The notes beneath the pieces were generated by a model. The model worked only from the letters and a program-made list of their open reading frames with translations, was not told the DNA's origin and ran no database searches. Positions 14,070 through 36,565 of a stretch of 64,000 nucleotides of DNA are shown piece after piece. The position numbers were made by a program, and so were the translations under genes. Origin of the DNA: Palaeococcus ferrophilus DSM 13482 (GTDB lineage: Archaea; Methanobacteriota_B; Thermococci; Thermococcales; Thermococcaceae); contig NZ_LANF01000018.1 in assembly GCF_000966265.1 (NCBI RefSeq), positions 1 through 64,000 on the forward strand. Direction: 5' to 3'. The first letter of the stretch is position 1. Every line of letters begins with the position of its first letter.

Positions 14070-14247
14070 GCGTTCCACCACCTGCTTACATAGTATGCAT
14101 ATAATCATACGTTTTAGCCGATGGTCATATAAATTGTGCGGTAAACTTGATATGGGAACTTTCACCAAGAAGTCTCTCCCACTATGCGGCCCTCAAATCA
14201 TACCGTTCCAGCATGATCCACTGGACTACCGGGGACTGGAGAGCCAG

Positions 14248-14275: not shown

Positions 14276-14422
14276 ACGCCCAACAACTAGTTCTTGGCGA
14301 AATCCTTTCCCCTCTCTACTCTCGTGGGAGTCCACTTCTCTTCGTCATTTCTCTCGTAACCATGTAGTTACTCACAACGTTTTTATTTTCCAATGATAAT
14401 ATCACTCTTGGTTGATGCTCAC

Positions 14423-17400: not shown

Positions 17401-17716
17401 AAGGGAGCCAAAGGACGTATCGAAAGAGAACCTCGGCTATGACATCTACTCAGAGGGGAACGGTGAAAAGAGGCATATCGAAGTGAAGGCGAGAGCACGT
17501 CTCGGAGACGTTGAACTCACCTGGAACGAGTACGTGACGGCGAAGAGACTCCGTGACAAGTACTGGCTCTACGTTGTTGCGTACGCAGCCGAAAAGCCGA
17601 CCCTCTACATTATCCGTGATCCCGCTCATACACTCAAGGTCGTTGAGAAGTACGAGATCAGGTTCAAAGTCCCGCTTGAAGAATGGAGAAAGAAGGGTAA
17701 AAAGGTTGAAGTCTGA
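14423..17716 (+). CDS. SNF2-family helicase with C-terminal DUF3883/nuclease-like domain (BrxH/DrmD-like)
   Basis: About 1,097 residues from ATG 14423; a promoter-like TTTTTATTTTCC at 14380-14391 makes the earlier ATG 14393 unlikely. Helicase domain 1 has Walker A ADDPGAGKTIMAGL (about residue 125) and VDEAHKM; domain 2 has FTEFKDTLEYLV, ATEAAGEGINLQ and QRIGRVHRYGQ. The last 130 residues contain LGYDIYS and RHIEVKAR, a D...ExK pattern like the Mrr/PD-(D/E)XK fold seen in DUF3883. Related helicases belong to BREX type 3 and DISARM defence systems. It is followed after 12 bases by the methylase, forming an operon. Confidence 0.85.
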   Translation: MGMKIKPGHIIKSAKLKEPFLVEIVQQVGGTVKLAGAYLESREPDYLIFTEDELADMTIIENPLDFKGDPEAVALAIEGERYHFAALYDPILAVSVSKIAPLPFQIDAVYNHILKNPEIRFLLADDPGAGKTIMAGLVIKELKLRGLAERILIVVPGHLVPQWRREMKEKFQEEFQIINREVFKTTTDVWRREKQVIASIDFLKQEDIIKSLENVDWDLVIVDEAHKMAAYRFGKRVRRTKRYRVGEVLSKNSTHMLFLTATPHKGDPENFRLLLDLLVPGLFSDKEILHEAIQRGENPIFLRRMKEDLVGFDGKRLFKPRYPHTVTFRLTDKEVRLYNELSKYLHYQYTVLGGNRRSIVFPLVIFQRRFASSVYALLQSLKRRKALLQDRLQSGELEVKPIQLQFEDLIEIEDEEERKRWEAERWMEGVILTRRKDRLKAEIQTLNELIRMSEELIALEEETKLKKLKETLETIKRDHGEKEKILIFTEFKDTLEYLVNKLQEWGYTVTFIHGEMDMETRLQREKDFNDWAQVMVATEAAGEGINLQFCHLLINYDIPWNPNRLEQRIGRVHRYGQKYPVHIFNFVVENTREGMVLQRLLKKIEEIRKALGDKVFDVIGELLDGENLYQLLSEVAIMLRDPDTVLREEEPSLKPEEITKKAEELLAESLATKHIDLTKIMQLLEKAEENKLSPEYLELFFLKAMKRLNARVREKEPHVYSIERTPRVLRELAERKRYGVVERSYRAITFDKKLSDKRDGLEFVSFGHPLFEALREWVQEEHLKELQRGAVFYDPRNRLHGTVWFFEGEVRDGSNKTAGKTLVAVYDDGEDFEIIDPKIVWDLEPAKDAPEVNTDFKRREDAMIYARKALDGYKNQLLKERKRQAEIKRKYGIKSLRKLIDDIDFKLAEYELLPPDEKKRYALTIRNLEERLNRYRRTLEELPEKIERETSLVVRPPVFIGAIYVLPRGQMGEDPAIEEIGMQIAMEYERKHGREPKDVSKENLGYDIYSEGNGEKRHIEVKARARLGDVELTWNEYVTAKRLRDKYWLYVVAYAAEKPTLYIIRDPAHTLKVVEKYEIRFKVPLEEWRKKGKKVEV

Positions 17717-17728
17717 GGAGGCGATAGA

Positions 17729-20488
17729 ATGGAGGACAAACGCTTTATTGAGGTCGCTTTTCCGGTCAAGGCCGTGAGTGAAGAGTCCGCAAGGGAAAAG
17801 AACATAAGGCACGGCCACATCTCAACACTCCACATCTGGTGGGCAAGGCGCCCGCTAGCTTCGTCACGAGCCACAAACTACGCCGCACTCATTCCGGCAC
17901 CAAAAAACGAAGCCGAAATCGAGAGAAACAAGAAGTTCATAGGGAAGCTCTCGAAGTGGGAGAGTTCCCTTGACGAGGAAGTTATACGAAAAGCCCGTGA
18001 AGACATACTGGAGTACTTCAAGCAGATACGGGACGACCAGAACCAAGAGAGGCCGAGGGTTCTTGACCCCTTTGCGGGTGGTGGCTCAATCCCGCTCGAA
18101 GCCCTCCGCCTCGGGCTTGAAACGTACGCAATGGACTATAACCCCGTTGCTGTTCTCATTCTGAAGGCCATTCTTGAGTACCCCCAGAAGTATGGAAAGA
18201 AAAAGAAGGGTGCACTCGACGAGTGGGTCTCCGGAAAGAAAGAGGAGAAGAACTACGACCTCGTGAGGGACGTCAAGAAGTGGGGCGAGTGGGTTCTTGA
18301 GGAGGCAAGAAAGGAGCTTGAGCGCTTCTATCCCAAGGACGATGACGGGTACATCCCTGTTGGCTACATTTGGGCGAGAACAATAAAGTGCCAGAATCCC
18401 GCTTGCGGTGCCGAGATACCCCTTATGAGACAGTTCTGGCTCGCAAAGAAGAACAACAAGAGGGTGGCCCTGTACCCGTACGTCGAAGGGAATGAAGTGA
18501 CGTTCAAGATAGCGGGAGATGGCTACGAGCCGATGCCAGAAGACTTCGACCCGTCAAAAGGCACCGTGAAGGGGGCAAAGGTCACCTGTCCGGTCTGCGG
18601 CATGACTCACGATGCGAACACGACCAGAAAGCTCTTCCGTGAGGGGAAGGCCGGCCAGAGGATGGTGGCCGTTGTTCTGTACCACCCAGAGAAAAGGGGC
18701 AAAATCTACCGCCTACCAACGGAGAAGGATATCCAAGCGTACGAGGAAGCGAAGCGGTACCTTGAGGAGAAGAGAGCAAAGCTCATGGAAGAGTGGGGAA
18801 TTGATCCAGTTCCTGATGAACCGTTACCGCCCAAGGGTACGCTTGGTTTCAGGGTTCAAAACTATGGAATGACAAAGTGGGGGGACCTCTTCAACGATAG
18901 GCAGAAGCTTGCACTGATAACCTTCGTTGAGAAAGTACGGAAAGCGTACGAAAATATGCTCAAAGAGGGCTATGATGAGGGGTATGCGAAGGCGGTGGCG
19001 ACTTATCTGGCACTTACTGTGGATAGACTTATATACTTCCATAATTCCTTGAACACTTGGCAGGCAGAATATGAGAAGACTCGGGGAATATTCTCAAGAG
19101 GCACCATGTCAATGACTTGGGATTATACTGAACTTCAACCGGTTGGTTCGAGCGCAGGAAGCTGGGAAAGTATTTTTGAGGATGTTCCTTCCGTTATCGA
19201 GAATTGCAATCCTGAGATAACAAGGCCATCAACGGTTATCCAATCATCAGCAACATCACTCCCCTTCCCAGACAACTACTTTGACGCCGTCTTCACTGAC
19301 CCACCGTACTACGATAACGTACCTTACTCTTACCTCAGCGACTTCTTCTACGTCTGGCTCAAGCGTACTCTTGGAGAACTTTATCCCGAGCTATTCATGA
19401 CTCCTCTCACACCAAAGAGCAAGGAGCTCGTTGCTTACACCCAGAATCAGGACTGGGAGGCCGCAAAAAGGTACTTCGAGGAAGGAATGAAGCAGGCTCT
19501 CAGAGAAATTCACCGCGTTCTCAAGCCGAACGGAATTCTCGTGCTCGTATATGCTCACAAGACTACTGAGGGATGGGAAACCCTGATAAACTCCCTCCTT
19601 GACTCTGGTTTGGTACCAACGGCTTCTTGGCCACTCCACACTGAGAGAGCTACCCGACTCAGAGCCAAGGAATCAGCCGCCCTTGCATCGTCAATCTACA
19701 TAGTTGCCCGTAAAATCAAGAAAGAGGGCATTGGCTGGTTCGATGAGGTCAAGAAAGAGCTCAGAGTAACGCTTGAGAAGAAGCTCGACCAGCTCTGGAA
19801 GGAGGGCATAAGCGGTGCGGACTTCTTCATCTCAGCCATAGGCTCGGCCATCGAGGTCTTTGGTAAGTACGAGAAGGTTCTCGACTACGAGGGCAACGAG
19901 ATAAGGGGCGACAGGCTCCTCCAGCTCGTGAGGGACATTGTGAGCGACTACGCCATAAGGCAGGCTCTCAGGGAGGACATCTCCGCCGAGCTTTCTCCGC
20001 TTACAAAGTTTTACGTGCTCTGGCGCTGGACGTACGGCGAGGCGAAGGTGGCCTTCGACGAGGCGAGAAAGCTGGCGACGTCGGTCGGCCTTGACCTTGA
20101 GAAGGAGTGGAATAGGGGCTTCATCGTGAAGGAGAAGGAGTTCATCAGGGTTCTCGGCCCGCAGGACAGGAAGCTGAAGGAGATAAAGGGCAACGACCTC
20201 ATTGATGTACTCCACAAGGCCTTGCTCCTCTGGCAGGCGAACAGGAAGAGGGAGATGGTCGGTCTGCTCGCAGAGACTGGCTGGGGTGAGAAGGATGCCT
20301 TCTTCAAGGTGGCCCAGGTCATCAGTGAGGTTCTCTCAAAGGACAGCAAGGAAAAGAAGCTCCTTGATGGGTTCCTGGCCGGAAGGGAGCACATAAGGAG
20401 GGCTATTGAGAAGGGAGACTACTCGCTGTTCAACGGTGAGGAAGAGCCGGAGAAGCAGGCGACGATTGAGCGGTTTATAGGGAGGTGA
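17729..20488 (+). CDS. DUF1156 adenine-specific DNA methyltransferase with zinc ribbon (PglXI-like)
   Basis: A 919-residue protein starting at ATG 17729 after GAGGAGGCG. The N-terminal [19 protein letters not shown] block is the DUF1156 signature. The SAM motif is [16 protein letters not shown] (about residues 110-125), two zinc-ribbon halves (CQNPACG and CPVCG) lie in the middle, and the catalytic [12 protein letters not shown] is at about residue 525. It should methylate adenine N6 in DNA. Such methylases are the modification subunit of BREX type 3-like systems. It directly follows the SNF2 helicase; its stop codon is followed at once by an inserted ATPase cassette. Confidence 0.88.
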
Positions 20489-20497
20489 ACTCGAAAC

Positions 20498-20543
20498 TTT
20501 TATATACTTTTTTGGACGTACCCCATTATGGGGGATGTCCAAA
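20498..20543 (+). promoter_or_regulatory. Promoter and palindromic operator of the nested ATPase gene
   Basis: A TATA box (CTTTTATATACTTTTTT, about 20497-20513) is followed by a 31-base near-perfect palindrome at 20513-20543 with arms TTGGAC...CCCC and GGGG...GTCCAA around ATTAT. The palindrome covers the expected transcription start, so a bound repressor, possibly the ATPase itself or a partner, would block initiation. Confidence 0.6.
20514..20533 (+). repeat. Left 20-bp direct repeat of the ATPase cassette
   Basis: GGACGTACCCCATTATGGGG matches GGACATACCCCATTATGGGG at 21646-21665 at 19 of 20 positions. The pair brackets the ATPase gene. Confidence 0.85.
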
Positions 20544-20544
20544 A

Positions 20545-21633
20545 ATGCTGTTTGATGTCTACCCTAAGACATCAATAGGAGAGTTGTTTGGGCGAAAGGC
20601 CGAGTACCTGAGTTTTCTTGATGCGATAGAAAAAAGAAGGAATTTTTTCATAATTACCGGTCCGAGGAGAATAGGGAAAACAAGTTTTCTTTATGCCGCG
20701 CTCAATGAACTTGAGGGGGAATATGGCATCCCTTATGCAGTAATTGACGCAAGGGCTGCTACATCTGTGAACTCTAAATATCCTCAGAGGGTTATTGCCG
20801 AGCGTTTGTACAAAGCAATAGTACGAAAGGGATTTATAGGTGGTATTATCTCCAGGATAAAGAGTATAAACCTCGAAGGGGTCGGGATTGACCTCCAGGA
20901 GGAAAATTTCGATATTATTGACGTTTTCTCGGCGATAAACGAGGGGAATGAGCTCGCTGTGATAGCCTTTGACGAGGCCCAGTATCTCAGATTTTCGAAT
21001 GAAGATCTCACAAAGCTCTTTGCGTGGATTCTTGACAATCTCCACAATATCGTGCTCGTGGTTACTGGTTCCCAAGTTGGTGTTCTTGAGAACTTCCTCC
21101 GCCTTGATGATGGTAATTCCCCATTATACGGGAGATACGAGGTAAGAATCAACCTGCCACGTTTCAACCCTTCTGAGAGCCTTGAATTTCTGAGAAGAGG
21201 ATTTGAAGAGTATGGAATGGATGTGAACGAACGTGAGCTTCTTCCAGTAGTGAATACTCTCGACGGGGTTCCCGGATGGCTTGTCCACTATGGAGCACAC
21301 CGAATTGATGGACTCACAAACGACGAGGCCATAGAGAAGGTACTTGAGAAGGCCATGAAGTATGTACAGACGGAGTTTGAAGAGCTGGATAAGCTTTCTC
21401 CCAGATACAGAACTGTAATCAGGGCAATAGCCCATTTGAGTGAGGACAAAGGCTATGCAAGATGGGAAAATATCAAGAGGTTTGCTGAGGGAGAGTTAGG
21501 AGAAGGAATAGATGAGAAGTCAATGAGAGGATATTTATCAAAACTCATGGACTACGGTTTTGTGGAAACGATTGGATATGGAAAATACAGAATCCCCGAT
21601 CCGGTCATGTATCGGGTTTTCAAGAGAATGTAA
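20545..21633 (+). CDS. Archaeal ATPase (STAND/AAA-type, PF01637-like) with C-terminal winged helix
   Basis: A 362-residue protein starting MLFDVYPKTSIGELFGRK at ATG 20545; the longer frame from 20485 would read through the promoter. Walker A is ITGPRRIGKTSFLYA (about residues 35-49), Walker B is VIAFDEAQYL (about 139-148), sensor 1 is VLVVTGSQVG, and the C-terminal 100 residues contain a winged-helix pattern (YRTVIRAIAHL, SMRGYLSKLMDYGFVE). This family is greatly expanded in Thermococcales and its cellular role is unclear. It is nested inside the defence module, with its own promoter and flanking repeats, which suggests later insertion. Confidence 0.87.
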   Translation: MLFDVYPKTSIGELFGRKAEYLSFLDAIEKRRNFFIITGPRRIGKTSFLYAALNELEGEYGIPYAVIDARAATSVNSKYPQRVIAERLYKAIVRKGFIGGIISRIKSINLEGVGIDLQEENFDIIDVFSAINEGNELAVIAFDEAQYLRFSNEDLTKLFAWILDNLHNIVLVVTGSQVGVLENFLRLDDGNSPLYGRYEVRINLPRFNPSESLEFLRRGFEEYGMDVNERELLPVVNTLDGVPGWLVHYGAHRIDGLTNDEAIEKVLEKAMKYVQTEFEELDKLSPRYRTVIRAIAHLSEDKGYARWENIKRFAEGELGEGIDEKSMRGYLSKLMDYGFVETIGYGKYRIPDPVMYRVFKRM

Positions 21634-21645
21634 TTGTACATTTCT

Positions 21646-21665
21646 GGACATACCCCATTATGGGG
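21646..21665 (+). repeat. Right 20-bp direct repeat of the ATPase cassette
   Basis: GGACATACCCCATTATGGGG, 12 bases after the ATPase stop codon; same orientation as the copy at 20514. It keeps the central palindrome CCCCATTATGGGG but lacks the outer right arm (TTCC instead of GTCC). Confidence 0.85.
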
Positions 21666-21903
21666 TTCCTCTCAATTCTTTTGGCAGGTACACAACTGCC
21701 CAGTAGCCTTGACATGTTGTAGTGGACTCATGACTATTTTTGTTGGCATTCTAATGAATTACCTTGTGAAGATTCCTCATGACTTATCCTATTTACTTTA
21801 CGCAAGTGGGGAGAGGAGAAAAGATTTTATTGGGCAACGTTTGTAACACAAAGAGGGTGAGTGGCCACTGAAAGAAACAGTAGGTCTTGCTGCTGGATTT
21901 GTT

Positions 21904-22398
21904 GTGGTAATGTTGTTCGCAACGGCCTGGCAGTCTGGACTCATGTACCACTATGAGGCGGGGCACCAAGAGAAGGTACCAGTTCCTCTGAGCTTTTCCA
22001 ACGACTCCAGCACTTCAACCGCCGCTATTGAAGTGGAGAGCACCCAAACAAGTACTTTTTCTGAGGAGCCCACGACGAAAACCTCTACAGTGTCAGAGAC
22101 AGAACCCTCCCAAGTCAATCTGAGTCAGGAAGAGATTATCCGAGTCAATAGGAGTATCCAAAACTTTACTCAAAGCTTATGGGAGGGCATATCCAAGTAC
22201 GGTTACGATAACGTTACACTCACTCTGGCGACATCCATTGCATCTCTGCCACTGGTTCCCGAGTGCGAGAATCTCTCAGGATATAGGAACCTGAGTGTGT
22301 ACAATGAGAGAGTCTCAAACCTCACCGTGGCACTTCATAAGTACAAGAACCTCGCAGAAGGCTGTCCAAGGACTACGGTGTTGAACTGCCTTACTTGA
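21904..22398 (+). CDS. Membrane-anchored Ser/Thr-rich protein, N-terminal part (frame likely broken)
   Basis: The open frame can extend upstream to about 21859 (EWPLKETVGLAAGFVVVMLFATAWQ), which gives a full signal-anchor helix; GTG 21904 is only the first conventional start in frame. A Ser/Thr-rich linker (about residues 30-75) is followed by a helical region. The frame ends at 22398, but homology-like continuity (KDYGVELPYLNDREIG) is found in another frame from about 22368, so a frameshift between 22341 and 22398 is likely. The best ribosome binding site (GAGGGTGA, 21853-21860) precedes a GTG in a third frame, so the 5' end may also be damaged. Function unknown. Confidence 0.5.
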   Translation: MVMLFATAWQSGLMYHYEAGHQEKVPVPLSFSNDSSTSTAAIEVESTQTSTFSEEPTTKTSTVSETEPSQVNLSQEEIIRVNRSIQNFTQSLWEGISKYGYDNVTLTLATSIASLPLVPECENLSGYRNLSVYNERVSNLTVALHKYKNLAEGCPRTTVLNCLT

Positions 22399-22940
22399 AT
22401 GACAGGGAAATCGGAAGACTGAAAAATGCCCTCAGGCCCTCTCAAGTTGAAAATATGCTCATGGCCTGCTCCTTCGTTCGAGACTACAACAGGCTCGTCA
22501 TAGCAGCGGGGCGGGTAACTCTTGGAGACGAGAGCACGTACACAGAATTCTACGAGAGGCTCTTCATAGTGGGAGTAGAACTCATCTTCATGAAGGAGAA
22601 CGTCGCTTACAAGGTTTCGTACAAGCTCGTCGGCAATATTATGTGGAAAACTCACCTCTTTCGTGTGATATATTACCTTGGAGGAAGCACTGCCCTCAAG
22701 ACTGTCATGAGTATCATGCACTGGGAAAGTAGAGGCCTCATAAACAAGTATTTCGACACCTTCAACGAGAACCCAGAGAAGATGGAGGAACTTATCTCAA
22801 ACATTGACGATCCCAGCTGGATTTATGACCAAGTGAGTTCAGTAAAGGAGCTCCTCGAAAACAAGACCACAGAACTCATAGGGAACAAGACTGACCTTGT
22901 GAACAAACTCAAGGGTTTCCTCGGGTCGGATGGAGGGTGA
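22395..22940 (+). CDS. Helical protein, probable C-terminal part of the preceding membrane protein
   Basis: A 181-residue frame whose TTG start overlaps the preceding stop (TTGA). The same frame is open back to 22341, where it reads KDYGVELPYLNDREIGRL, so it is more likely the continuation of the upstream frame after a one-base shift than a separate gene. It is helical throughout, with no transmembrane segment or catalytic motif that I recognise. It lies between the ATPase cassette and the DUF499 ATPase, so it could be an accessory membrane component of the defence module or unrelated cargo. Confidence 0.5.
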   Translation: MNDREIGRLKNALRPSQVENMLMACSFVRDYNRLVIAAGRVTLGDESTYTEFYERLFIVGVELIFMKENVAYKVSYKLVGNIMWKTHLFRVIYYLGGSTALKTVMSIMHWESRGLINKYFDTFNENPEKMEELISNIDDPSWIYDQVSSVKELLENKTTELIGNKTDLVNKLKGFLGSDGG

Positions 22941-22992
22941 GTAACCGGAAAACCCAAATACTCTGTGGTGTATAGGATTCGGAGGTGTAACC

Positions 22993-25629
22993 ATGGAGCT
23001 GAAGCCGTTTTATCAGATCGCCATTCCCCATGAGGATATAAAGGAAGGAAAGTTCACTCTCGACACTTTCGCGGCAGATCTTTGGAGTGTGTACCAAAAT
23101 AAGGGGCCTGAAGATTACAGGAATCCCCAGCTCTTCTGGGAGAGGACATATATCACAAAGGGCCTGAGTGATCTCATTGAAATAGCGAGAAAGCGGCTTA
23201 TAGATGGTACAGGCGATGCGGTAATTCAGCTCCAGACGCCGTTTGGTGGGGGTAAAACTCATTCGCTCATAGCACTTTATCATAAGGCCCTTGAGTGGGG
23301 AGCGAACGTTGTTGTTCTGGATGGTACTGCCTTTGATGCAAAAGAAGTAATCCTCTGGGAGGAGCTCGAGAGACAGCTTACGGGCAAAGTAGGCCTTCTC
23401 AAAGGAGATGTTGCCCCAGGGAAGATAAAGCTTTCAGAGCTCCTTGAAGAGAGGGCCCCAGTACTGATTCTCGTTGATGAGCTCCTTGAGTACATGGTAA
23501 AGGCTGCTGGTATTACCGTTGGGGAGACTACCCTCGCTGACCAGACCCTTGCATTCGTTCACGAGCTCACAGAGGTTGCAAAGTCCACTGATAAGGTTCT
23601 GCTCGTTATGACACTTCCATCAAGTATTCTCGAGCACTATTCTGAGAAAGCGGAGGAATACTTCCAGAAACTCCAAAAAATAGTGGGACGCTCACAGAAG
23701 GTATTCACACCTGTGCAGGAGGAGGAAGTTCATGATGTCATCAGGACGAGACTCTTCAAGAGAATTGATGAGGCTGAGATGGAGGCCATTGTGAAAGAGG
23801 CTGTTGAGTACCTTGATAAGGAAAGCCTCATTCCCGAGGGACTCAATGCATACCAGTACCGCCAGAGATTTCTCAGGAGTTACCCCTTCCAGCCCGAGGT
23901 CATTGACGTGCTCTATCATCTGTGGGGAAGCCTTCCAAAGTTCCAGAGGACGAGGGGAGTTCTGAGGCTCCTCTCAATCGTGGTGCACTCCCTTATGGGA
24001 AGGGATGTACCCTTCATAAGGCTTTCAGACTTTGATTTGAGCGTCAAGACTCTCAGGGACGAGCTTATTGACATCATTGGTGAGAGTAGGTACTATTCAG
24101 TTCTTGACGCTGATATTCTCTCTCCAAATTCAGGAGCGAAGAAAGTTGACAAGATGGTTGGAGAATCGTACGAGCACTATCGCGTGGGGACGAGAGCGGC
24201 AACCGTCATCTTCATGTACTCCTTCTCAGGTGGAGATGTGAAAGGAGCCACGACTAAGGAGATAAAACTCTCCTGTGCTGATACAAGATACTCAAGCAGT
24301 ATAGTTGGGGACGCCATTCTTTACCTCAAGGACAATCTTCTCTATCTACATTACAAGGATGGAAGGTACCACTTCAGTCTCGAGCCAAGTCTCAACAAGC
24401 TGGTCGTTGACGAAATGAACAATGTGAGCGATGAGCAGATAGCGGAAGTCGAGCACGAGCTTTTGAGGGGGCAGCTCAAGGGTAGGCACTTCAAAGTGTA
24501 CCTGTGGCCAAGCAAACCTACCGACGTTCCTGATAGTGACCCCAGCTTGAAGCTCGTTGTCCTGCGCGAGCACGATAAAGACAAGGTTCTCCAGCTACTC
24601 CAGTCATACGGCGGTGGTGAGAGAGTTCACAAGAATACTCTCATATTTCTCGTCCCGAGAGAAACGGAGAGAGCCAGCTTCAACAGGTTCGTGAGAAGGT
24701 ACGTTGCGTGGAAGATCATCGCGGAGAAGGCGAAGAGAGGCTCGCTGGAGCTCACATCGGAACAGAGGGAGGACGTGAAGGAGAACCTGAAGAGGGCTCG
24801 TGAGGATATCATTCAGAAGATAGCCGAGCTTTACAGGATCGTCCTTCTTCCAAAGAGAGGTGGCTACGAGGAGCTTGACCTAGGAATGAAGCCTGTTGGT
24901 GTCAAGAAGACTATAGAGGAACTCATCTACGAGAAGCTCAAGGATGAGGGTAAGCTCGTTGAGAAGATGGCACCAATAGTCATTGAAATGAAATATCTCG
25001 ATGGCAATGAATATGTTCAAACAAAGCTCCTCTATGAGAGCTTCCTCAAGACTCCAGGGATGCCACTCTTGAAGAGCAAGAGCGTGCTTGTAGATGCGAT
25101 AAGGGAGGGTGTGAGCGAGGGGCGCTTTGGATTGGGGTACCTCTCTGGAGAGGAGGCAACATGTGGGTACCTTGGAGAGAGGCCCACGGTTACACTCGAC
25201 GACAACGAGATTATCATAAGAAAGGATTACTGCGAGAAACTGAAAGCAGCGAAAGAAACAGAGATTGAGGAACCTACAATCCCTGCAGAAGTCAGTACCA
25301 CGAGCATTGAACCTGAGACCACAGAGTGGAAACCCCTCGAGGTCAGGGAGAAGCAGGCAGTATTAGTTCCTTCAACTACAACGGAGATAGAAACGAAGCC
25401 TGAACTCTCGGGTCTAGTTAGTGAAGTGCATTTGCATTTGACTCTTGGTCCTGGCACAGGTGGACTCACGGATCTCTTGAGAGCATTGAGATTACTGAAA
25501 TCCAAGTTTGAGAGTGTAACTATTGAGATAAAGGCTGAGAAGGGTTCCCTGACCGAGACAGAGTATGAGAATCTGCTCGAGACCTTCAAGCAATTGAACA
25601 TTGAAGTCAGGGAAGTGCATAAAGAATGA
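22993..25629 (+). CDS. DUF499 large P-loop ATPase (PglY/BrxC-like)
   Basis: An 878-residue protein starting at ATG 22993 after a strong GGAGGTG. Walker A is QLQTPFGGGKTHSLIALYH (about residues 77-95) and the Walker B-like strand is VLILVDELLEYMV (about residue 158). The N-terminal region has ELKPFYQIAIPHEDI and LWSVYQNKGPEDYRNP, typical of DUF499. The C-terminal third has a variable acidic Thr/Glu-rich linker, then a small alpha/beta domain (VHLHLTLGPGTGGL, VTIEIKAEKGSL). In Pgl/BREX the DUF499 ATPase is an essential partner of the methylase. Here it pairs with a DUF1156 methylase and an SNF2 helicase but no PglZ phosphatase is present. Confidence 0.88.
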   Translation: MELKPFYQIAIPHEDIKEGKFTLDTFAADLWSVYQNKGPEDYRNPQLFWERTYITKGLSDLIEIARKRLIDGTGDAVIQLQTPFGGGKTHSLIALYHKALEWGANVVVLDGTAFDAKEVILWEELERQLTGKVGLLKGDVAPGKIKLSELLEERAPVLILVDELLEYMVKAAGITVGETTLADQTLAFVHELTEVAKSTDKVLLVMTLPSSILEHYSEKAEEYFQKLQKIVGRSQKVFTPVQEEEVHDVIRTRLFKRIDEAEMEAIVKEAVEYLDKESLIPEGLNAYQYRQRFLRSYPFQPEVIDVLYHLWGSLPKFQRTRGVLRLLSIVVHSLMGRDVPFIRLSDFDLSVKTLRDELIDIIGESRYYSVLDADILSPNSGAKKVDKMVGESYEHYRVGTRAATVIFMYSFSGGDVKGATTKEIKLSCADTRYSSSIVGDAILYLKDNLLYLHYKDGRYHFSLEPSLNKLVVDEMNNVSDEQIAEVEHELLRGQLKGRHFKVYLWPSKPTDVPDSDPSLKLVVLREHDKDKVLQLLQSYGGGERVHKNTLIFLVPRETERASFNRFVRRYVAWKIIAEKAKRGSLELTSEQREDVKENLKRAREDIIQKIAELYRIVLLPKRGGYEELDLGMKPVGVKKTIEELIYEKLKDEGKLVEKMAPIVIEMKYLDGNEYVQTKLLYESFLKTPGMPLLKSKSVLVDAIREGVSEGRFGLGYLSGEEATCGYLGERPTVTLDDNEIIIRKDYCEKLKAAKETEIEEPTIPAEVSTTSIEPETTEWKPLEVREKQAVLVPSTTTEIETKPELSGLVSEVHLHLTLGPGTGGLTDLLRALRLLKSKFESVTIEIKAEKGSLTETEYENLLETFKQLNIEVREVHKE

Positions 25630-27408: not shown

Positions 27409-28033
27409 TGGACAAATTGCAAAAATGTTGCAAAAATGTCCACAAACAACCCCCATTTTGTCCACAAACCACCTAACCCTCTTCGCAGAACCCACGTTCG
27501 ATAATAGAATTTTCATAAACCTGTAATATCCACACATGTTAGATGAATTGACAATGAAAATTTTTCGGAAGAACCCCAAAGAGTATGCGTTACTACGAGC
27601 ATCATGGGGCAGGATTGTTTCTTTAGCGTGTCACGCTCCGAAAAAAATTTGTCCACAAACCGAATTGTGGACTTTGTGGACAATTTGCAAAATTATTGCA
27701 AACCCCCTAAAATTTTTCGGAAACACCCCCGGGTTTCGACTCACTTATTCGGGCGAAAAATACAAGATGACAACTGTTACCTGCGATTTTTCGTCACTCT
27801 GGCGAAAATGTACAACTATGAAAGTCCACAAATAGTATGTGGACATTTTGTGGACAAAATTCTCTTCGGTGCACCCTAATTTTTTAGAATAATAATCGAG
27901 CTAAGCATCGAATAACCGAATTCAAATCGTCGAAACTATGGGTGTTTATCGAAAAAAATTTGTCCACAAATTTTCAGAAAATTCATTTTCGCGCTCATTA
28001 CTCGAAGTATATTATGCTAAATTTGTGGACAAA
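27409..28033. repeat. Iteron cluster of TTTGTGGACAAA sites
   Basis: Eleven full or partial copies in both orientations: 27409-27417, 27437-27446, 27457-27468, 27648-27659, 27665-27673, 27673-27683, 27823-27832, 27838-27845, 27847-27858, 27959-27970 and 28022-28033. Five are complete 12-mers TTTGTCCACAAA or TTTGTGGACAAA. Two share a longer context CGAAAAAAATTTGTCCACAA. TTGCAAAAAT/TTGCAAAATT repeats are interspersed (27418-27436, 27684-27702). Confidence 0.85.
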
Positions 28034-28887: not shown

Positions 28888-28907
28888 GGTTCGATTACAA
28901 TCGAACC
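28888..28907 (-). promoter_or_regulatory. Palindromic element operator, copy 2
   Basis: GGTTCGATTACAATCGAACC on the plus strand. Read on the minus strand it is followed by CAACACTCCTC, matching the downstream block of copy 1. It lies about 40 bases upstream of the TATA box (28947-28956) of the nuclease gene. Confidence 0.75.
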
Positions 28908-28962
28908 GAAGCGAGGTAAGAAATGTGCAGAACAGTGTCTCAAAAACTATAAAAACAATTTT

Positions 28963-28989
28963 TGAGGAACATTCCCTCGGTGTTCCTCA
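28963..28989 (+). repeat. 9-bp inverted repeat touching the nuclease start codon
   Basis: TGAGGAACA (28963-28971), a nine-base loop, then TGTTCCTCA (28981-28989), whose last base is the A of ATG 28989. The left arm holds the only GAGG-like ribosome binding sequence. It may be a DNA operator or an RNA hairpin. Confidence 0.7.
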
Positions 28990-29777
28990 TGATCCCTCAA
29001 ACCAGAGAAAGTGTGGACTTTAGCGAAGTTAGGAATTTGCCGCTGGTTAGCGTGCATACGGTGGCTAATAGGTTAGTCAAACTTCCGCGTGTTTACATGA
29101 ACAGGGAGAGGATACTCAACACCGCTTTTGGAATCGCTTTTGATTATGCAATCTCCCAATGGAACCGCCAAATCCTAAAAGGCGGAAAAACGACCCTCCA
29201 GCGCCTAAACGCCTCACTGCTGGAAGTTTTTACTGCTAACGCGAATAGGGAGTTGCTGACGTACATCGTACGCAACAGAGGTAACTCTACTGAAAAACTA
29301 GTCACTCCCGAAGAGTACACCAAGTACAAGGCGTTAGGGTTGAAAATGCTGAAAGCGTTCCAGCAAACTCCCGCCTTCGGAAAACCTCGCCCCGAACACC
29401 GCTTAGTGATAATCGGCGGCGAGTACGGTCTTACTGCCAGAGGGGATTTCATAGACAGGGATAAGGGTATCATTTTCGAAGTAAAAAGCACTACTAAAAC
29501 GTACACTCTCCCCCGCGCGCGGTGGCAAGTTCTAATGTACTTGTTAGCTTACCCTGAAGTCGAGAGGGGGGCTATTATATACTTTGAGGAGGATGGGGAT
29601 GAGATTCTTCCCCGCATTGAGGTGATCAGGAGGGACGAATTAGACGAGGCTTCACTCCTAAAAATCGAGCAGAAGGTTGCCCAACTCGCCCGGAAGAGCG
29701 GTAGGCGCCTAAACCCTTACCAACTCAGAAAGTGGAAAATACTCGAAATACCCTCCCTGTTGGAGTGGTTCCAATAA
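28989..29777 (+). CDS. PD-(D/E)XK nuclease (RecB/Cas4-like)
   Basis: About 262 residues from ATG 28989 (a TTG at 28962 is an alternative). A helical N-terminal half is followed by the nuclease core: GDFIDRDKGIIFEVKS gives the D and ExK of the PD-(D/E)XK fold (about residues 160-175), and RARWQVLMYLLAYP is the following QxxxY-type helix of RecB/Cas4-like enzymes. No four-cysteine cluster is visible, so it is not a typical Cas4. On a plasmid or virus it could act in replication or recombination. The promoter region carries the element palindrome and an inverted repeat at the start codon. Confidence 0.72.
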   Translation: MIPQTRESVDFSEVRNLPLVSVHTVANRLVKLPRVYMNRERILNTAFGIAFDYAISQWNRQILKGGKTTLQRLNASLLEVFTANANRELLTYIVRNRGNSTEKLVTPEEYTKYKALGLKMLKAFQQTPAFGKPRPEHRLVIIGGEYGLTARGDFIDRDKGIIFEVKSTTKTYTLPRARWQVLMYLLAYPEVERGAIIYFEEDGDEILPRIEVIRRDELDEASLLKIEQKVAQLARKSGRRLNPYQLRKWKILEIPSLLEWFQ

Positions 29778-29948: not shown

Positions 29949-30818
29949 TCACACTTCTTCAATTGCTTTCCATATGGAATCCTCAGTGACTTTTCCGTTT
30001 TCTAGGAATCTAGACGCGTTTCTCAGGACAAGGAAAGCCCAGTGTAAGTCACGACTCTCACGCTGAATGAGGTCTGCAAGCAGGGCAATGGCTCCTTCGT
30101 CTACTGTTCCGGGAAGGAAGGCACTTTTCACTCTATCTTCGAGTATTTTGAACAGTTCATGAGACATGTATGGTCTGAAGTGGATGGGTATCGGAGTAAG
30201 TGATGAGAGGGAAGGGGCTGAAAGTTGTTCCCTCATAATTCTCCACTGGTTTGTAATCAGTATCAAGTTCACTGCTGGTCTTCCCACACTCTCGTTTAGT
30301 CTGGAGAGGCCGTATGCTAAATCATCAATTGGATTGACCCCAGAGTAAGTCTTCATCTTGTCAATCTCGTCCACGATTATCAAGTACCTAATGTCCCGAC
30401 GTTTTATTGCATCCACTATTGAATCATACACTTCTGAGATGGCGGGCCCCCTCTTCTCAGCGGAGAGAGCTGTTGCAAGGTCTATGAGGGTGTACCTGTA
30501 TGTCTTGTCCTTAGCTGATACGTAAATGGCTCTGGAGGGGATGTTCTGGGTGGTAGCGACTCTGTTATAGGTCCTTTCTACTAGTCTTGCGGCGGCGGTT
30601 TTCCCCACGCCGGGTGGCCCGTGGATGAATAAGTTTAGGGTGATTGAGTGAGCTAAGAATGGGCCCACGTTCTCAAAGATTTTAGCAATCTCGTCCTCCC
30701 TAAACAGCAAGTTCGAGGGCACGTATGATTCCGAGAGGTACTCAGGGTGTATTAGCACGCTTTTTGTCTGAGCATGCTTGCGGAGAAGACTTTTCCGAAC
30801 ATTCTTCTCATTGCTCAT
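29949..30818 (-). CDS. Orc1/Cdc6-like AAA+ ATPase lacking the winged-helix domain
   Basis: A 289-residue protein. Walker A HGPPGVGKTAAARLV (about residues 64-78), Walker B YLIIVDEIDKMK (about 145-156), and a sensor region LILITNQW. The N-terminal part (SVLIHPEYLSESYVPSNLLFREDEI) resembles the Orc1/Cdc6 lead-in where the family has a conserved 'P..L..R' block. Archaeal Orc1/Cdc6 proteins are usually near 400 residues with a C-terminal winged helix that binds origin DNA; here the protein ends after the lid domain, so DNA binding must come from elsewhere. It probably serves replication initiation of the element. No strong ribosome binding site is seen. Confidence 0.8.
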   Translation of the reverse strand: MSNEKNVRKSLLRKHAQTKSVLIHPEYLSESYVPSNLLFREDEIAKIFENVGPFLAHSITLNLFIHGPPGVGKTAAARLVERTYNRVATTQNIPSRAIYVSAKDKTYRYTLIDLATALSAEKRGPAISEVYDSIVDAIKRRDIRYLIIVDEIDKMKTYSGVNPIDDLAYGLSRLNESVGRPAVNLILITNQWRIMREQLSAPSLSSLTPIPIHFRPYMSHELFKILEDRVKSAFLPGTVDEGAIALLADLIQRESRDLHWAFLVLRNASRFLENGKVTEDSIWKAIEEV

Positions 30819-31546
30819 GGTTCTTCAATAACACTATATCCTCAGGATTATAAGAGTTTTTGTTTTTATTTTATTTGGAGATACCGTACAGTACTTGGAG
30901 CATCGTCTCTTGGAGCCATTCAGCAATATTGCATGGGGGATTACCAAGCATGGAATGCACCTAACAAAATTATACATTTCTCGCCTTGTTGAAGGATTAC
31001 AATTATCACAGACAAAAACAACCAAATCCACTCAAGATTGCAACGCACAAGCTACTGATCCACCACATCCGGCGTTTTGATGAAGTGTTCTTGTTATCAT
31101 ATGCGGTAGCACAATAAAGAAATAAGCTCCGCTCTGATAGCTTATATTCGCAAGACGTTACGGACTCAACTTTTTGAGGCCATTGGGCGTTATTGTTTTT
31201 GGTCATCTTCACTGCCCTAGCAGAGAAAAAGAAACGGAGAGAGCACCAGACTCAATGTAAGCATATAATATTATCTCGACATGCGTGTATAATGAAAATA
31301 TTATCTCACCCTCACCAGGGAAGATCTCACTTCTTTCAAAATCTACGCACATAGGAGAGCGTCAAATATTTTCTGACAAGTAGTTTAGTACTACGCTAAT
31401 CACGCCTAACATTCTGTGCTCAGTAGTAATTTCACGTAATAGTATTGTCTCTAGATGAACCGACACTAGCTCCCGAAGCATTGTTTCACTTCCCTCATAT
31501 GATTTACGGCATGTGTCGAAACGTATCTAGACAATCGGGAGACGTG

Positions 31547-31905
31547 TTTATCAAGTGAACGAACTGAAGGGCCTACGTGATGCTCGTGAGAAGAGGTGGT
31601 TATCAAGTGAACAGGTAAATTACCTAAAAGAAGAGGAGTCTCCTTACCACTAAGAGTTTTCTTATATTTTGTTACTTTATTCTCAACGTTCAACTATAGC
31701 CTTATCCAAAAAATAACACGACATGGCTAAAAAATTTCGCTGGAAATATAGCACCATCCGTGGAAATTCTCTAAAAACGTAGAACTTTCTGCTACATTAC
31801 AAGGGCAATGTATGTTACTGGACGGAGGTTCACTTGATAACCACCTCTCTGTCTCTCCCAGGATAACCTTCCGGATAATCTTCACTTGATAACCACCTCT
31901 CTGTC
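31547..31905. repeat. Inverted pairs of a 20-26-bp repeat (GAGGTGGTTATCAAGTGAAC)
   Basis: Plus-strand copies at 31547-31560 (core only) and 31593-31612; minus-strand copies at 31828-31853 and 31880-31905, which share 25 bases reading (G/C)TTCACTTGATAACC...CTGTC. A shorter relative (TTTATCAAGTGA) sits at 29781-29792. The arrangement is two rightward then two leftward copies. Confidence 0.85.
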
Positions 31906-32010: not shown

Positions 32011-32030
32011 GGTTCGATTACAATCGAACC
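32011..32030 (+). promoter_or_regulatory. Palindromic element operator, copy 3
   Basis: GGTTCGATTACAATCGAACC, followed by CAATACCCTCTTC. A TATA-like GTTTATATCG follows 20 bases downstream (32051), directed toward the MCM-like gene. Confidence 0.75.
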
Positions 32031-32080
32031 CAATACCCTCTTCTCAGAAGGTTTATATCGTTGGTCTGGGGCGGTATGTT

Positions 32081-32118
32081 CCAATGTTCCATGGATCCAT
32101 GGATCCAATGTTCCATGG
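32081..32118 (+). repeat. Direct repeat CCAATGTTCCATGG around tandem GGATCCAT
   Basis: CCAATGTTCCATGG occurs at 32081-32094 and 32105-32118; between them is ATCCATGGATCC, so the whole block is rich in CCATGG/GGATCC palindromes. It lies just downstream of the expected transcription start of the promoter at 32051. Confidence 0.8.
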
Positions 32119-32316
32119 TACCTTGGTACAATAGAACCTCACACAATATTTACACAACCCCAGTCTAGATAGCACAATACCAAAAAGTATAAAAAGAAAT
32201 GCTGTGTTTGTTTTCTGAAACTTCAAACTTTTCTAATCAGGACAGGTCTAATCAGGTAGAACAGAAAATCAAACGATATGGTAGTAAGATATAACCATCT
32301 TAGAGGGGGTTAGATA

Positions 32317-33990
32317 ATGAGCAAAGTTAGATATGACATCTCTACACCCAAGCTTCCAAGGGAACTTGGACAGGAGAGCATTGGGAAGCAAGTATTGGTT
32401 GAGGGTGTTGTTTCAAGGATCAGCGAAGTGCTTTCTTACCCGCAGAAGGTGACTTTTGTTTGCAGAGTTTGTGGCCATAGAATGGAAGAATCATGTAAAC
32501 CTTGGGAAAAGCCAATAAAACTAAGAAAATGTGAGAAGTGTAAGTCTAAAGACATAGAGATAGATGGCATGAACAGTTACTCTGAGAGATACCAGATATT
32601 TCGTATCCAAGATCCACCAGAAGCTCTTGAAGATGGGACTCTCCCAATGTATATTGACGGGGTTATTACTGGATCGCTGGTTGGCAATCTAAAACTAGGA
32701 AGTCGCGTGAGAATTACAGGAACTCTTACTGTGGCATCTAGGAACGTAAGTGGAAATCAGGGCTTTGTGCTGAATAACGTATTGGAAGCTATCCATGTTG
32801 ATGAAGTAACTGGTGAGTTGAGCAAATGGAGCATACAGGATGGGGACATCCGCAAGTTCCATGAGGAAATCCAAAGAAAGGATTTCAAGCAGAGGATTAT
32901 CAACTCAATACTTCCTAACATCAAAGGATACAACCGTCTAAAAGAATGTCTGCTCTTGGCCTTGCTTGGAGGATCTGGGATCAATCTCCGAGATGGCACA
33001 AGATTACGGAAGAATATCCATGTGTTGGTAGTTGACGAGCAACAGAAAGCAAGTCAAGTCTTGAATGCTATGACAAAAATATTTCCAGGAATGATCTATG
33101 TTGAAGGGTCTAGCCTACAGAGAGCAGAACTTGTCGCTAAAACTACACGCGATGAGCTAACTCGAAAAAGACTCGTTGAAGCAGGCCCCCTAACTCTGGC
33201 AAATGGCAATATCGTCATAATCGAAGAACTTGATAAGCTTCCAAAACGGGATAAGGACACTCTCGCTAAAGTCATGGAGCAAGAAGTTGCTTCAATTACA
33301 CAAGCGGGCATCAATAGCAGATTCCCAGTACAAACTACCGTTATTGCAGTGATCAACCCTAGGCCTAACGCACCAAACAATCCAGAGCCTCTAACTTCTA
33401 GGTTGAACATAAGCCCAAAGCTACTAAGTGTCTTCGACTTAGTTTGTGTTGTGCCCGAAGTTTCTGGGGAAAACAATACTGAAGATCACTATGACCTCGA
33501 GTTTGTGAGGAAGTTTATACTATATGCTCGGAAACTCAATCCAGTCATTTCTAGGGAAGTGCTTGATAGTATTGAAGACCATTATGAAACTATCAGAGAT
33601 AAAGAGACTGATTTAGGTCTTTCTTCCTCTAACGCACATCTCCAGTTCATCATACGCCTTGCAATTGCTCACGCAAAGCTATATCTACGAGAGACAGTCA
33701 CTAAAGAAGACGCCAAAGCAGCTATCGAACTCGTTGAAAATGTGCTAGGGAGAGAGTATACTGAAAGCACACCAACTCGTTTGAATAAAGCAGAAAAGAT
33801 AGAAATTATCCGCGATATAGTATACCAATTTGGATCATCGACACCTCAGGGTGTTTCTGAGGAAAAGCTCATAGAAGAAGCAACTAAGAGAGGTATCCCC
33901 GAGAATGAAGTACAGGGGATAGTATCGATGCTAATATACCGTGGAGAGGTATATATGCCTAGCTTTAGGCATTATAAACTAACATTATAA
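32317..33990 (+). CDS. MCM-family protein with degenerate ATPase motifs
   Basis: A 557-residue protein, shorter than the usual 650-700 because the N-terminal A subdomain is missing. The OB-fold begins at once (VLVEGVVSRISEVLSYP) and a zinc motif is present (CRVCG...CEKC, residues about 50-75). The AAA+ region is recognisable (KGYNRLKECLLLALLGG, MEQEVASITQAGI, VIAVINPR) but key motifs are altered: the Walker A stretch reads VDEQQKASQ instead of GDPGTAKSQ, Walker B is IIEELDK, and the arginine-finger SRFD is SVFD. It is probably inactive as an ATPase. A C-terminal winged helix (about residues 490-557) remains. The start is ATG 32317 after GAGGGGGTTAG. Confidence 0.85.
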   Translation: MSKVRYDISTPKLPRELGQESIGKQVLVEGVVSRISEVLSYPQKVTFVCRVCGHRMEESCKPWEKPIKLRKCEKCKSKDIEIDGMNSYSERYQIFRIQDPPEALEDGTLPMYIDGVITGSLVGNLKLGSRVRITGTLTVASRNVSGNQGFVLNNVLEAIHVDEVTGELSKWSIQDGDIRKFHEEIQRKDFKQRIINSILPNIKGYNRLKECLLLALLGGSGINLRDGTRLRKNIHVLVVDEQQKASQVLNAMTKIFPGMIYVEGSSLQRAELVAKTTRDELTRKRLVEAGPLTLANGNIVIIEELDKLPKRDKDTLAKVMEQEVASITQAGINSRFPVQTTVIAVINPRPNAPNNPEPLTSRLNISPKLLSVFDLVCVVPEVSGENNTEDHYDLEFVRKFILYARKLNPVISREVLDSIEDHYETIRDKETDLGLSSSNAHLQFIIRLAIAHAKLYLRETVTKEDAKAAIELVENVLGREYTESTPTRLNKAEKIEIIRDIVYQFGSSTPQGVSEEKLIEEATKRGIPENEVQGIVSMLIYRGEVYMPSFRHYKLTL

Positions 33991-34321: not shown

Positions 34322-34672
34322 TTATTCCTCCAACCACCGTTTGTGAGTTCGATATAGTGAGAGCATCCGCGAGCCAAATTTCTTGGATAATGTGAGGTAG
34401 TGCTTTTGCGTGCCAATCTCAACGTAGTCGTCGAGGAGGCCTATGCTTTTCAGTGTGTTTATGTAACGGTAGATTTGGCGCTTGGAAAAGCCCGAGCTTC
34501 TGGCGAATCTTTCTACGAAGGTCTTGAGTTCCCAACGGGGGAGTTTGCCACCATACTCGAGTTTTATTGCTTCCAGCATGTTTGTGATAACCCGTATCGT
34601 CTCTGCTTTTGTCCTTTTGCGGTGGGGGATTGCCCCCAACTCTACGAGGGCTTCGACAATCTTCTCGACCAT
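34322..34672 (-). CDS. Winged-helix DNA-binding protein (element regulator candidate)
   Basis: A 116-residue basic protein starting MVEKIVEALVELGAIP. The middle contains a helix-turn-helix (WELKTFVERFARSSGFSKRQIYRYINTLKSIGLLDDY, about residues 47-83), followed by a wing (VEIGTQKHYLTLSKKFG). It resembles small archaeal plasmid and virus regulators. The upstream region has repeated TGTCA half-sites, suggesting autoregulation. It may also be the factor that binds the four palindromes of the element, but nothing in the sequence proves that. Confidence 0.75.
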   Translation of the reverse strand: MVEKIVEALVELGAIPHRKRTKAETIRVITNMLEAIKLEYGGKLPRWELKTFVERFARSSGFSKRQIYRYINTLKSIGLLDDYVEIGTQKHYLTLSKKFGSRMLSLYRTHKRWLEE

Positions 34673-34899: not shown

Positions 34900-35868
34900 T
34901 CACCTCTTACGACCTCTTCTTCTTTTGTTCCTTCTTTTTCTTTTGCTTGTGTGAGTTGACGCTAGAAGTCTTTCCTCGTTTTCAATGCGTATACCAGAGT
35001 ATATATTTTCCTTGATATATGAGAGCACTGCGGGGTACTGCTTTTTTGAGAGTCGCATGACGTCGAGATAGTGTTTCACTCCAATCGAAGAGGGAGAGCG
35101 ACCCTGTATAAAGTCCGCCACGTCCGGATCCATGCCGTTCTCACGAGCAGTAGTGTACCACCACTTGCGAATTGCGTTGTATAAAACACGTTTACGCTTT
35201 GCTAAATTCCCAGAGACGTTATAAGTCATTTTCTCTCCCAGTTTGGCGATTTCCTCTGCTAGTTCTGCTGAGCAGAGGCAGATGAATGCTCGTTTTGTTT
35301 TATTATTGATGTTGAGTTGAACTTCTGCGATATCCCCATGTATGGTGTATTTCTTCTTGACAATTCTATTGAATGCTTCTACTGCGTGACTGCGACGTAA
35401 GCCGCTTTCTACAACTAGTCTCAGGTATAGTTGGTGTTTGCGGTTGGGGGCTAGGGAGAGGATCTGTTTGATTTCGTCATCAGAATAGATCCGAGGGTCT
35501 ATTTTTGTTTTCTTGAGTTTTATGAGCTTTTTGATTTTTGTGTATATGTCGTCATCTATGATGTTCTCCTCATGGAGAAACTTTGCCAGTGAGCGGAATG
35601 CAAGCCTATGGTTTTTTGGGGAGTCATTGATTTTGAGTAGGTCGTGGACAGTGTTGTATTTCTTCAGGATTTTCTCGTATTCGTTCAGTGTCTTCTCCGA
35701 AAGGTGCTGCCGTGCCCAGTTGTGCCATTTTGGAAGCAGTCGTTCTTTCTCCCAAAGGAGCAATTTTAGAGGCTCACTTTTCTCAATCGGCATTTTTAGA
35801 GGCGTTCCACCCATTTTGGTGCCTCCGGAGCCGAAGGTCGCGGGTTCAAATCCCGCCCGGCCCGCCAT
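34900..35868 (-). CDS. Integrase, C-terminal catalytic part (intC), SSV-type tyrosine recombinase
   Basis: From the in-frame ATG at 35868, inside attR, the protein reads MAGRAGFEPATFGSGG, then the element-specific TKMGGTPLKM from base 35820. A helical core-binding domain (ARQHLSEKTLNEYEKILKKY) is followed by the catalytic domain with VESGLRRSHAVEAF (first Arg) and DFIQGRSPSSIGVKHYLDVM, which carries the late His/Arg-type residues and the likely Tyr nucleophile of archaeal integrases. The tail is very basic (KRKRRNKRRRGRKR). In the circular element the frame joins intN to give 370 residues. In the integrated state it lacks its native promoter. Confidence 0.88.
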   Translation of the reverse strand: MAGRAGFEPATFGSGGTKMGGTPLKMPIEKSEPLKLLLWEKERLLPKWHNWARQHLSEKTLNEYEKILKKYNTVHDLLKINDSPKNHRLAFRSLAKFLHEENIIDDDIYTKIKKLIKLKKTKIDPRIYSDDEIKQILSLAPNRKHQLYLRLVVESGLRRSHAVEAFNRIVKKKYTIHGDIAEVQLNINNKTKRAFICLCSAELAEEIAKLGEKMTYNVSGNLAKRKRVLYNAIRKWWYTTARENGMDPDVADFIQGRSPSSIGVKHYLDVMRLSKKQYPAVLSYIKENIYSGIRIENEERLLASTHTSKRKRRNKRRRGRKR

Positions 35869-35869
35869 A
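35821..35869 (+). repeat. attR: 49-bp direct repeat (tRNA-Arg 3' half)
   Basis: Identical to 13878-13926. No tRNA 5' half precedes it, so it is the right attachment site rather than a second tRNA gene. Confidence 0.93.
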
Positions 35870-36565
35870 CAGCCCTTTGCTTCGCAAAGCGCTGGCGGAA
35901 GAATGGTATGCGTTTTTAACAAGCTTGCTTTTGAGGGGATTACTTGTAAAACAACTGCATTCACAAGGATTTCATCACAGTATAGAGCTCAAAGAGCGCT
36001 AAAAAGAAAGTTGAAATCACAAATAACACGAGAGTTTCGAAAGTAAACCCACTCAAGGTTGCCTCTTGGGAGAACATACACTCCTCAACAGGCAAGTTCA
36101 AAAAGAAGGGCACACTTTTGGTCAAGCTTTTTCCAAAAGCTTGCTAGCGAAGTTTCATCAAAGTTCGTAGCTCCTTCTAAAAAGTCAGCTTCCACGTGAT
36201 TTTCTCTTTTAAAGGCCGTGTTTTAAACGTGAGAACTCTTAAAGTGCTCCCTCAGTGTAGTTTAACTCTAAAAATCGACGCCCAAAGGGCGTCAAAAGAA
36301 GGTTAAACCTTTTTGAGAGGATTATTTAAAGTGTTCTCCTCACGAAAAGGACGCTTGTATTATAGTTTCCTGCTTTTGAACTTCTTTCTGTTTTTAATTG
36401 TTTTTTATAAAGGATTTTGCGGCCCAATATTGTTATTTCTCCACCTCTTTAGAAACTTATAAATACTTTGAAAACAGTTACAGATAAGACCTGCTTAACC
36501 CCTTGGTCCTTCTAACTCAAGGGGGTTCTTGGGTTGGCGGTCGAAAAGGTTGGGAAGGGAGCATT
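35870..36565. other. 700-base AT-rich intergenic region right of attR
   Basis: No supported gene. Two simple hairpins are visible: CTTTGC-TTC-GCAAAG at 35874-35888 and GACGCCC-AAA-GGGCGTC at 36277-36293. A TATA-like TTATAAATACTTTG at 36458-36471 probably drives the following surface-protein gene. The sequence is the original chromosomal neighbour of tRNA-Arg before integration. Confidence 0.5.

Follow-up and report, generated by a model that had tools for sequence, protein, structure and literature searches.

An integrated element with defence and replication genes

The 64-kb stretch of DNA analyzed here (the window) contains an element of ~22 kb (13878-35869) that is integrated in tRNA-Arg(CCG) and has a G+C content below that of its flanks. 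Repeat and tRNA searches placed attL, of 49 bp, at 13878-13926 in the 3′ part of the tRNA gene (13847-13924), and repeat comparison located an identical 49-bp attR at 35821-35869. The C-terminal part of an SSV-type integrase, int(C), is encoded on the minus strand at 34900-35964 (PF16795, 8.5e-27; phrog_5127), in an ORF that reads across attR. An int(N)-like ORF is present at attL (13836-14168, minus strand) and was assigned by its position and the reading frame through the att site, not by homology. The integrase apparently exists as two parts, int(N) and int(C); splitting of the integrase, with int(N) recognized by position, and direct repeats at att sites within a tRNA gene are the traits of SSV-type integrated elements.

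The left half of the element is occupied by a Hma defence operon on the plus strand (14393-25629, PADLOC). It contains HmaA-like (14393-17716, 2.9e-195), HmaB-like (17729-20488, 3.1e-148) and HmaC-like (22993-25629, 2e-129) genes, the three homologues that together mark this system, and an additional ATPase gene (20485-21633, plus strand), whose product has a winged helix of the MCM_C type (PF21100, 6e-09). The right half encodes a PD-(D/E)XK nuclease (28962-29777, plus strand; Pfam PDDEXK_1, 3.7e-07), a Cdc6 protein, an MCM homologue and a small helix-turn-helix (HTH) protein. No relatives of the nuclease were found in the other Thermococcaceae genomes searched. The HTH protein (34322-34672, minus strand) is, by sequence comparison, of the kind encoded by pTN2, pIRI48 and a T. 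profundus plasmid (68-71% identity).

A truncated Cdc6 and its probable origin

Pfam and homology identified a Cdc6/Orc1-like AAA+ initiator of 289 aa on the minus strand (29949-30818), which has intact Walker motifs and lacks the C-terminal winged helix. The closest Cdc6 proteins are the full-length ones of pTBMP1 from T. barophilus (404 aa, 54% identity) and of the 38-kb T. profundus plasmid (399 aa, 48%), and the similarity covers the AAA+ and lid regions only. The element Cdc6 is cut exactly after the lid, with homology stopping at residue 284/404, and no remnant of a winged helix was found within the window. The other Cdc6 homologues in 94 genomes of the family are nearly all open frames of about 390-550 codons, with only a few shorter ones (289-361), which are weak or contig-edge matches.

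Upstream of the cdc6 gene, between it and the divergent mcm gene, a repeat search revealed four copies of an origin-box-like 21-bp repeat. Copies 1 (31540-31560, two mismatches) and 2 (31592-31612) are on the plus strand, and copies 3 (31828-31848) and 4 (31880-31900, one mismatch) are on the minus strand, forming a 2+2 inverted array with the same 52-bp spacing on both sides. The inverted pairs are separated by a spacer of 65% A+T (31613-31827), which is a candidate unwinding region. The chance expectation in the window is 0.01, and no further copy of the repeat was found elsewhere in the genome. Both plasmids with the closest Cdc6 proteins also have inverted, G-rich repeats immediately upstream of cdc6 (GGGGGTATGTTGCGAAGTGGAAC in the T. 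profundus plasmid and GGGGGTGTGTTAGGAAATGGAAC in pTBMP1), and these, aligned by eye, resemble the 21-bp repeat around a GTT-NNN-AAGTG(G)AAC core. The element has the Cdc6 and the inverted repeats directly upstream that are found in replicons of this type, but not the Cdc6 winged helix. The similar repeats are good comparative evidence that the array is probably an origin recognized by the pTBMP1/T. profundus Cdc6 family.

Other repeats are also present in the right half. The 20-bp palindrome GGTTCGATTACAATCGAACC is located upstream of the MCM gene at 32011-32030, and the palindrome (GGTTCGATTNNAATCGAACC) occurs in four copies (26794, 28888, 32011 and 34125) that are specific to the element in this genome. 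One copy (28888-28907) lies just upstream of the nuclease gene, and the recurrence before the MCM and nuclease genes suggests shared control. Flanking bases to one side of the copies seem to be shared as well, with an alternating orientation. Five overlapping TCCATGGA-like units follow each other in 8-bp steps (32072-32126) in the interval that separates the palindrome from the MCM gene. Six copies of TTTGTGGACAAA (chance expectation 0.33) are found at 27457-28033, a stretch without convincing genes; this array may serve in partition or as another regulatory array.

An MCM homologue without subdomain A

The MCM homologue (hereafter, the element MCM) is encoded on the plus strand by an ORF with confirmed bounds of 32317-33990, which starts with ATG and specifies 557 aa. 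An in-frame TAG is located two codons 5′ of the ATG, and therefore no in-frame N-terminal extension is hidden upstream. Pfam matches above the cut-offs were obtained for MCM_OB (8e-21), the MCM P-loop domain (1.1e-44) and MCM_lid (2e-16), and no Pfam match above the cut-off was obtained for residues 491-557. Among solved structures, the closest relative is T. kodakarensis MCM3, residues 97-680 of which align with residues 6-554 of the element MCM (8x7t_D, 6.4e-91). Because the alignment begins at residue 97 of MCM3, the N-terminal subdomain A, a trait of cellular archaeal MCMs, is absent, as had been proposed in an earlier note made from the sequence alone.

An AlphaFold2 model, calculated with 56 fetched relatives as input, reached a pLDDT of 86 and a pTM of 0.77. 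As predicted, the protein has the parts of a complete MCM, namely an OB fold with a C4 zinc motif (residues 6-175; 32332-32841, plus strand), a helix-2 insert, a pre-sensor-1 hairpin, a lid and a C-terminal winged helix (residues 491-557, with 491-555 modeled as such; 33787-33987, plus strand). Foldseek searches with the model returned 8x7t (E 1.7e-53) and 8x7u as the two top PDB matches. By homology, the protein belongs to the MCM family, and the model indicates a genuine MCM fold without subdomain A, not a chance similarity.

Loss of motor residues

The motifs were read from a 36-row alignment of the element MCM with 35 other MCMs. Walker A, HVLLVGDPGVAKSQ in the others, is replaced by HVLVV-DEQQKASQ (VDEQQKASQ, residues 239-247; 33031-33057, plus strand). 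Compared to the consensus, a single residue has been deleted from this motif and the Gly, Pro and Lys are all lost; the remaining lysine is out of register, such that Ala245 occupies the position of the catalytic Lys. In Walker B, IDEFDK is changed to IEELDK (IIEELDK, 33217-33237, plus strand), where Asp303 has become Glu (D303E) and the catalytic E304 is retained. The arginine finger is lost by the change of LLSRFDL to LLSVFDL (R372V; 33421-33441, plus strand). These three changes had been noticed before, and the alignment substantiates each of them. The damage exceeds what the earlier note stated, since two changes were missed there: the sensor-2 arginine is also lost by the change of ARQLEALIR to NAHLQFIIR (R440A; 33634-33636, plus strand), and SKAGI in the pre-sensor-1 hairpin has become TQAGI (K329Q), a lysine that is present in 34 of the 35 other MCMs. 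By our own numbering, we take this lysine to correspond to SsoMCM K430. The att sites, the Hma genes and the truncation of Cdc6 are likewise absent from the earlier note. No alternative P-loop was seen elsewhere in the translation.

In total, the element MCM keeps 3 of 10 ATP-site columns, compared to 9-10 of 10 in each of the other 35 proteins. Outside the ATP site, it keeps 14/16 conserved columns in the N-terminal domain, 14/18 in the lid and winged helix and 25/45 in the rest of the AAA+ domain. The retained residues include the zinc cysteines (49, 52, 72 and 75; 4/4), E304, the sensor-1 N347, R231 and R447. Thus, the parts that had been described as kept (OB fold, zinc motif, sensor-1 Asn and winged helix) are indeed found in the Pfam matches, the alignment or the model. 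A Fisher test for the loss at the ATP site against the rest gave p = 0.035, a value that is modest because the columns are few. The AAA+ core is equally relaxed in two MCMs whose ATP site is near-intact, one encoded on contig C13 of the same genome (24/44) and the other on pMETVU02 (25/44). Most basic residues of the N-terminal hairpin are gone compared to the cellular Thermococcales MCMs. In sum, the motif set of an active motor (Walker A GDPGxAKS, Walker B DE, SRF finger and sensor-2 Arg) is missing, and these losses support the prediction that the protein is a non-ATPase MCM.

Retention of the reading frame

When neutral substitution of the gene was simulated, the first stop codon appeared after a median of 20 substitutions, and within 129 in 99% of the runs. 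The actual frame, noted before as long, is open over all 557 codons, although 27 conserved AAA+ positions have changed, including 7 of 10 in the ATP site; neither a stop nor a frameshift is present. The gene has probably changed far beyond 20 substitutions since the loss of the motor, and the data are compatible with more than one order of changes. The codon-usage score of the frame is 0.016 bits per codon, compared to −0.23 to −0.71 for the other five frames and 0.07-0.35 for the other genes of the element, and its GC3 is 0.38. The open frame despite heavy change, together with the pattern of losses, suggests that the reading frame remained under selection once the motor was lost. The earlier note had held that selection maintains a non-ATPase MCM; the open frame and the concentration of losses in the motor support the part of this claim that the protein is a non-ATPase and not a plain pseudogene.

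Relatives and other MCMs of the genome

In Thermococcaceae genomes, IMG/VR, GTDB, and phage and plasmid records, nothing closer to the element MCM than ~39% (partial) identity was found. Protein scans of viral and genome contig collections and a scan of viral contigs with an N-terminal-domain profile likewise returned no close relative, and the MCMs in phage and plasmid collections did not exceed about 30% identity. Motif-seeded scans gave 150 loci, as a census biased by seeds with intact motifs; a pattern screen of 152 long matches flagged six. These six seem to be split or truncated, or to have escaped the pattern, and were rejected as further MCMs with a lost motor. Searches of Thermococcaceae with the whole protein or the N-terminal domain, which are less biased, showed intact motifs wherever these were readable among the subset of matches fetched, many intein-split cellular copies being partly readable.

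A phylogenetic tree placed the element MCM inside the Thermococcales MCM clade (100/99 support) on a separate long branch (1.78). This branch and the identity of 34-36% rule out a recent capture from the host. The same genome encodes four MCMs, namely the intein-bearing host MCM on contig C19, two with intact motifs on C15 and C13, and the element MCM. The host replicative MCM is one frame of 2659 codons (L059, G000:C19), which inteins interrupt in Walker A, in the helix-2 insert, in Walker B and close to the next helix, and its visible motifs are intact. The host inteins were considered as a source of the motif damage and set aside, since the losses of the arginine finger and sensor 2 are away from the intein junctions seen.

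Possible roles of the element MCM

The delivery of MCM to an origin by archaeal Cdc6 is still poorly understood. The simplest reading, which we propose tentatively and with somewhat less than even confidence, is that the element MCM has been retained as a replication accessory without motor function that works at the element's own origin. A folded MCM paralogue would have lost its motor and been kept as a non-ATPase part of the element's replication module. The MCM gene is parted from the cdc6 gene only by the probable origin, and the MCM and the Cdc6 without winged helix may act jointly at the origin repeats. Cdc6 would provide ATP-dependent switching, and the element MCM would provide DNA contacts via its OB fold and winged helix and present a surface of the MCM type by which the host MCM ring would be recruited or positioned. 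Unwinding would then be done by the host ring, and the element would be copied by host enzymes. The loss of the motor with the fold kept, the open frame, the adjacent origin array, the shared palindrome and the host MCM with its visible motifs intact all speak for this proposal. Among the roles suggested earlier (DNA-binding loader, decoy poisoning host MCM rings and origin-marking protein), the origin-related one gains support from the adjacent Cdc6 and repeat array. However, the collections searched contained no close relative of the protein, which leaves selection on it and a conserved MCM-Cdc6 partnership without direct support; both neighboring replication proteins are reduced, as would also be expected of a replicon in decay; less constraint is indicated for the AAA+ core by its relaxed state, even if two MCMs with near-intact ATP sites are as relaxed; and the N-terminal hairpin has been stripped of most basic residues. 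If the accessory role is true, the element would offer a natural case, with an MCM stripped of motor residues next to a Cdc6 stripped of its DNA-binding domain and a compact origin, in which what MCM does as a recruiter or scaffold is uncoupled from what it does as a motor.

The complementary losses of Cdc6 (winged helix) and MCM (ATPase) invite a more specific model, in which the two are complementary halves of an origin-recognition and helicase-recruiting complex and the element MCM acts as the initiator or as the platform from which the host helicase is loaded. A decaying replicon fits these losses almost as well, and we consider the model decidedly unlikely. Decay in its own right, with the element settled in the chromosome, its replication genes eroding and the MCM gene a young pseudogene still free of stops, is an unlikely explanation. 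The lost winged helix of Cdc6, the lack of known relatives and the codon-usage score, weaker than those of the other element genes, agree with it, but the frame has stayed open through more changes at conserved positions than the median number to a first stop, the N-terminal domain and all four zinc cysteines are conserved, the correct frame outscores the other five and the att sites are still identical over 49 bp.

Alternatively, the element MCM may enter host or rival-element MCM rings, or occupy loaders, and block them, thereby controlling copy number or excluding MCM-dependent viruses. In eukaryotic MCM rings, subunits with unequally important ATP sites are mixed. The element MCM has lost both cis (Walker A/B) and trans (arginine finger, sensor 2) residues, and therefore a single subunit would inactivate two of the ATP sites in a ring; the cis and trans contributions to the MCM ATP site are laid out in the relevant passages of PMC4619765. 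Potential partners are available in the host MCM and the two other motif-intact MCMs of the genome, as well as in rival elements, among which MCM genes are common (they occur in six Thermococcales virus families; PMC12934983), and the Hma cargo would suit a defence role. Nevertheless, co-assembly is purely conjectural, identities of ~27-36% to potential partners make the compatibility of interfaces uncertain, subdomain A is missing, and the gene lies in the replication module rather than the defence module. We regard this blocking role as unlikely; if true, it would represent a natural dominant-negative of the replicative helicase. A further explanation is that the protein regulates transcription or copy number by binding the palindromes or the TTTGTGGACAAA array with its OB or winged-helix parts. 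The four palindromes and the six-copy array in the right half would offer targets, and small DNA-binding proteins replace MCM in some Thermococcales virus loci (PMC12934983). Small HTH proteins are, however, more natural for that task, one is encoded on the element itself (34322-34672), and no sequence evidence links the MCM to the palindromes, such that we consider this explanation very unlikely.

Comparison with known systems

T. kodakarensis MCM3 (8x7t), which has been described as an active helicase (PMC3307487), shares its fold with the element MCM over the whole protein at 33-35% identity, but it has all motifs and subdomain A, both of which the element MCM lacks. The MCMs of Thermococcales viruses and plasmids (pTN3, TKV-type and the six virus families in PMC12934983) are likewise element-borne and belong to the same Thermococcales clade. 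In contrast to the element MCM, those with readable motifs keep the P-loop and arginine finger, and many carry an N-terminal HTH extension of ~200 aa, whereas the element MCM has neither this extension nor subdomain A. The Thermococcales viral dataset has no Orc1/Cdc6 and no classical ORBs (PMC12934983), but the element MCM adjoins a Cdc6. Conversely, the pTBMP1 and T. profundus plasmids share the inverted repeats upstream of cdc6 with the element, and the latter also the small HTH protein (71%), but their stretches examined contained no MCM. The T. profundus plasmid also encodes a 130-aa protein that resembles, by eye, half a PCNA clamp (L048:19006-19398).

Several MCM relatives without ATPase are known or were found here. 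Haloarchaeal outliers of 312-315 aa are described in passages of PMC3972481 as consisting of the N-terminal domain only. Two Pyrococcus-like genomes encode 254-aa proteins of the same makeup, which are 82% identical (L299:9882-10646 and L300:8434-9198, both minus strand) and whose dN/dS of 0.17-0.20 indicates purifying selection. Such proteins are similar to the element MCM in being predicted to have no ATPase, but they have no AAA+ domain at all, whereas the element MCM retains the fold of this domain without its motor residues, along with the lid and winged helix. In one Thermococcus-like genome, the N-terminal part of a 457-aa protein (L301:9388-10761, plus strand) matches the MCM zinc/OB region (3e-10 to MCM3), and no AAA+ domain was recognizable in the rest; it is possibly an extremely degenerate MCM.

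The closest precedent is MkaMCM2 of Methanopyrus kandleri (PDB 3F8T, Bae et al. 2009), an inactive MCM with natural deletions and a non-conserved Walker A, according to the passages that describe it in PMC2933578, PMC3972481 and PMC4619765. By these descriptions, it has in common with the element MCM an unconserved Walker A and the state of an inactive homologue, which for the element MCM is predicted. MkaMCM2 has internal deletions and no exterior hairpin, whereas in the element MCM the segment GINLRDGTRLRKNIHVL is present and the invariant Arg R231 is kept, a distinction drawn from the description of MkaMCM2. The same descriptions report no mobile-element or origin context for MkaMCM2, whereas the element MCM lies in a mobile element beside a probable origin. 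With MkaMCM2, the haloarchaeal and 254-aa forms and possibly the 457-aa protein, motor loss is a recurring event among MCMs, and purifying selection acts on at least one of these forms, the 254-aa pair. A full-length MCM of this kind in a mobile element beside its own Cdc6 and origin was not reported in the open-access literature searched. Inactive MCMs as such were already known from MkaMCM2.
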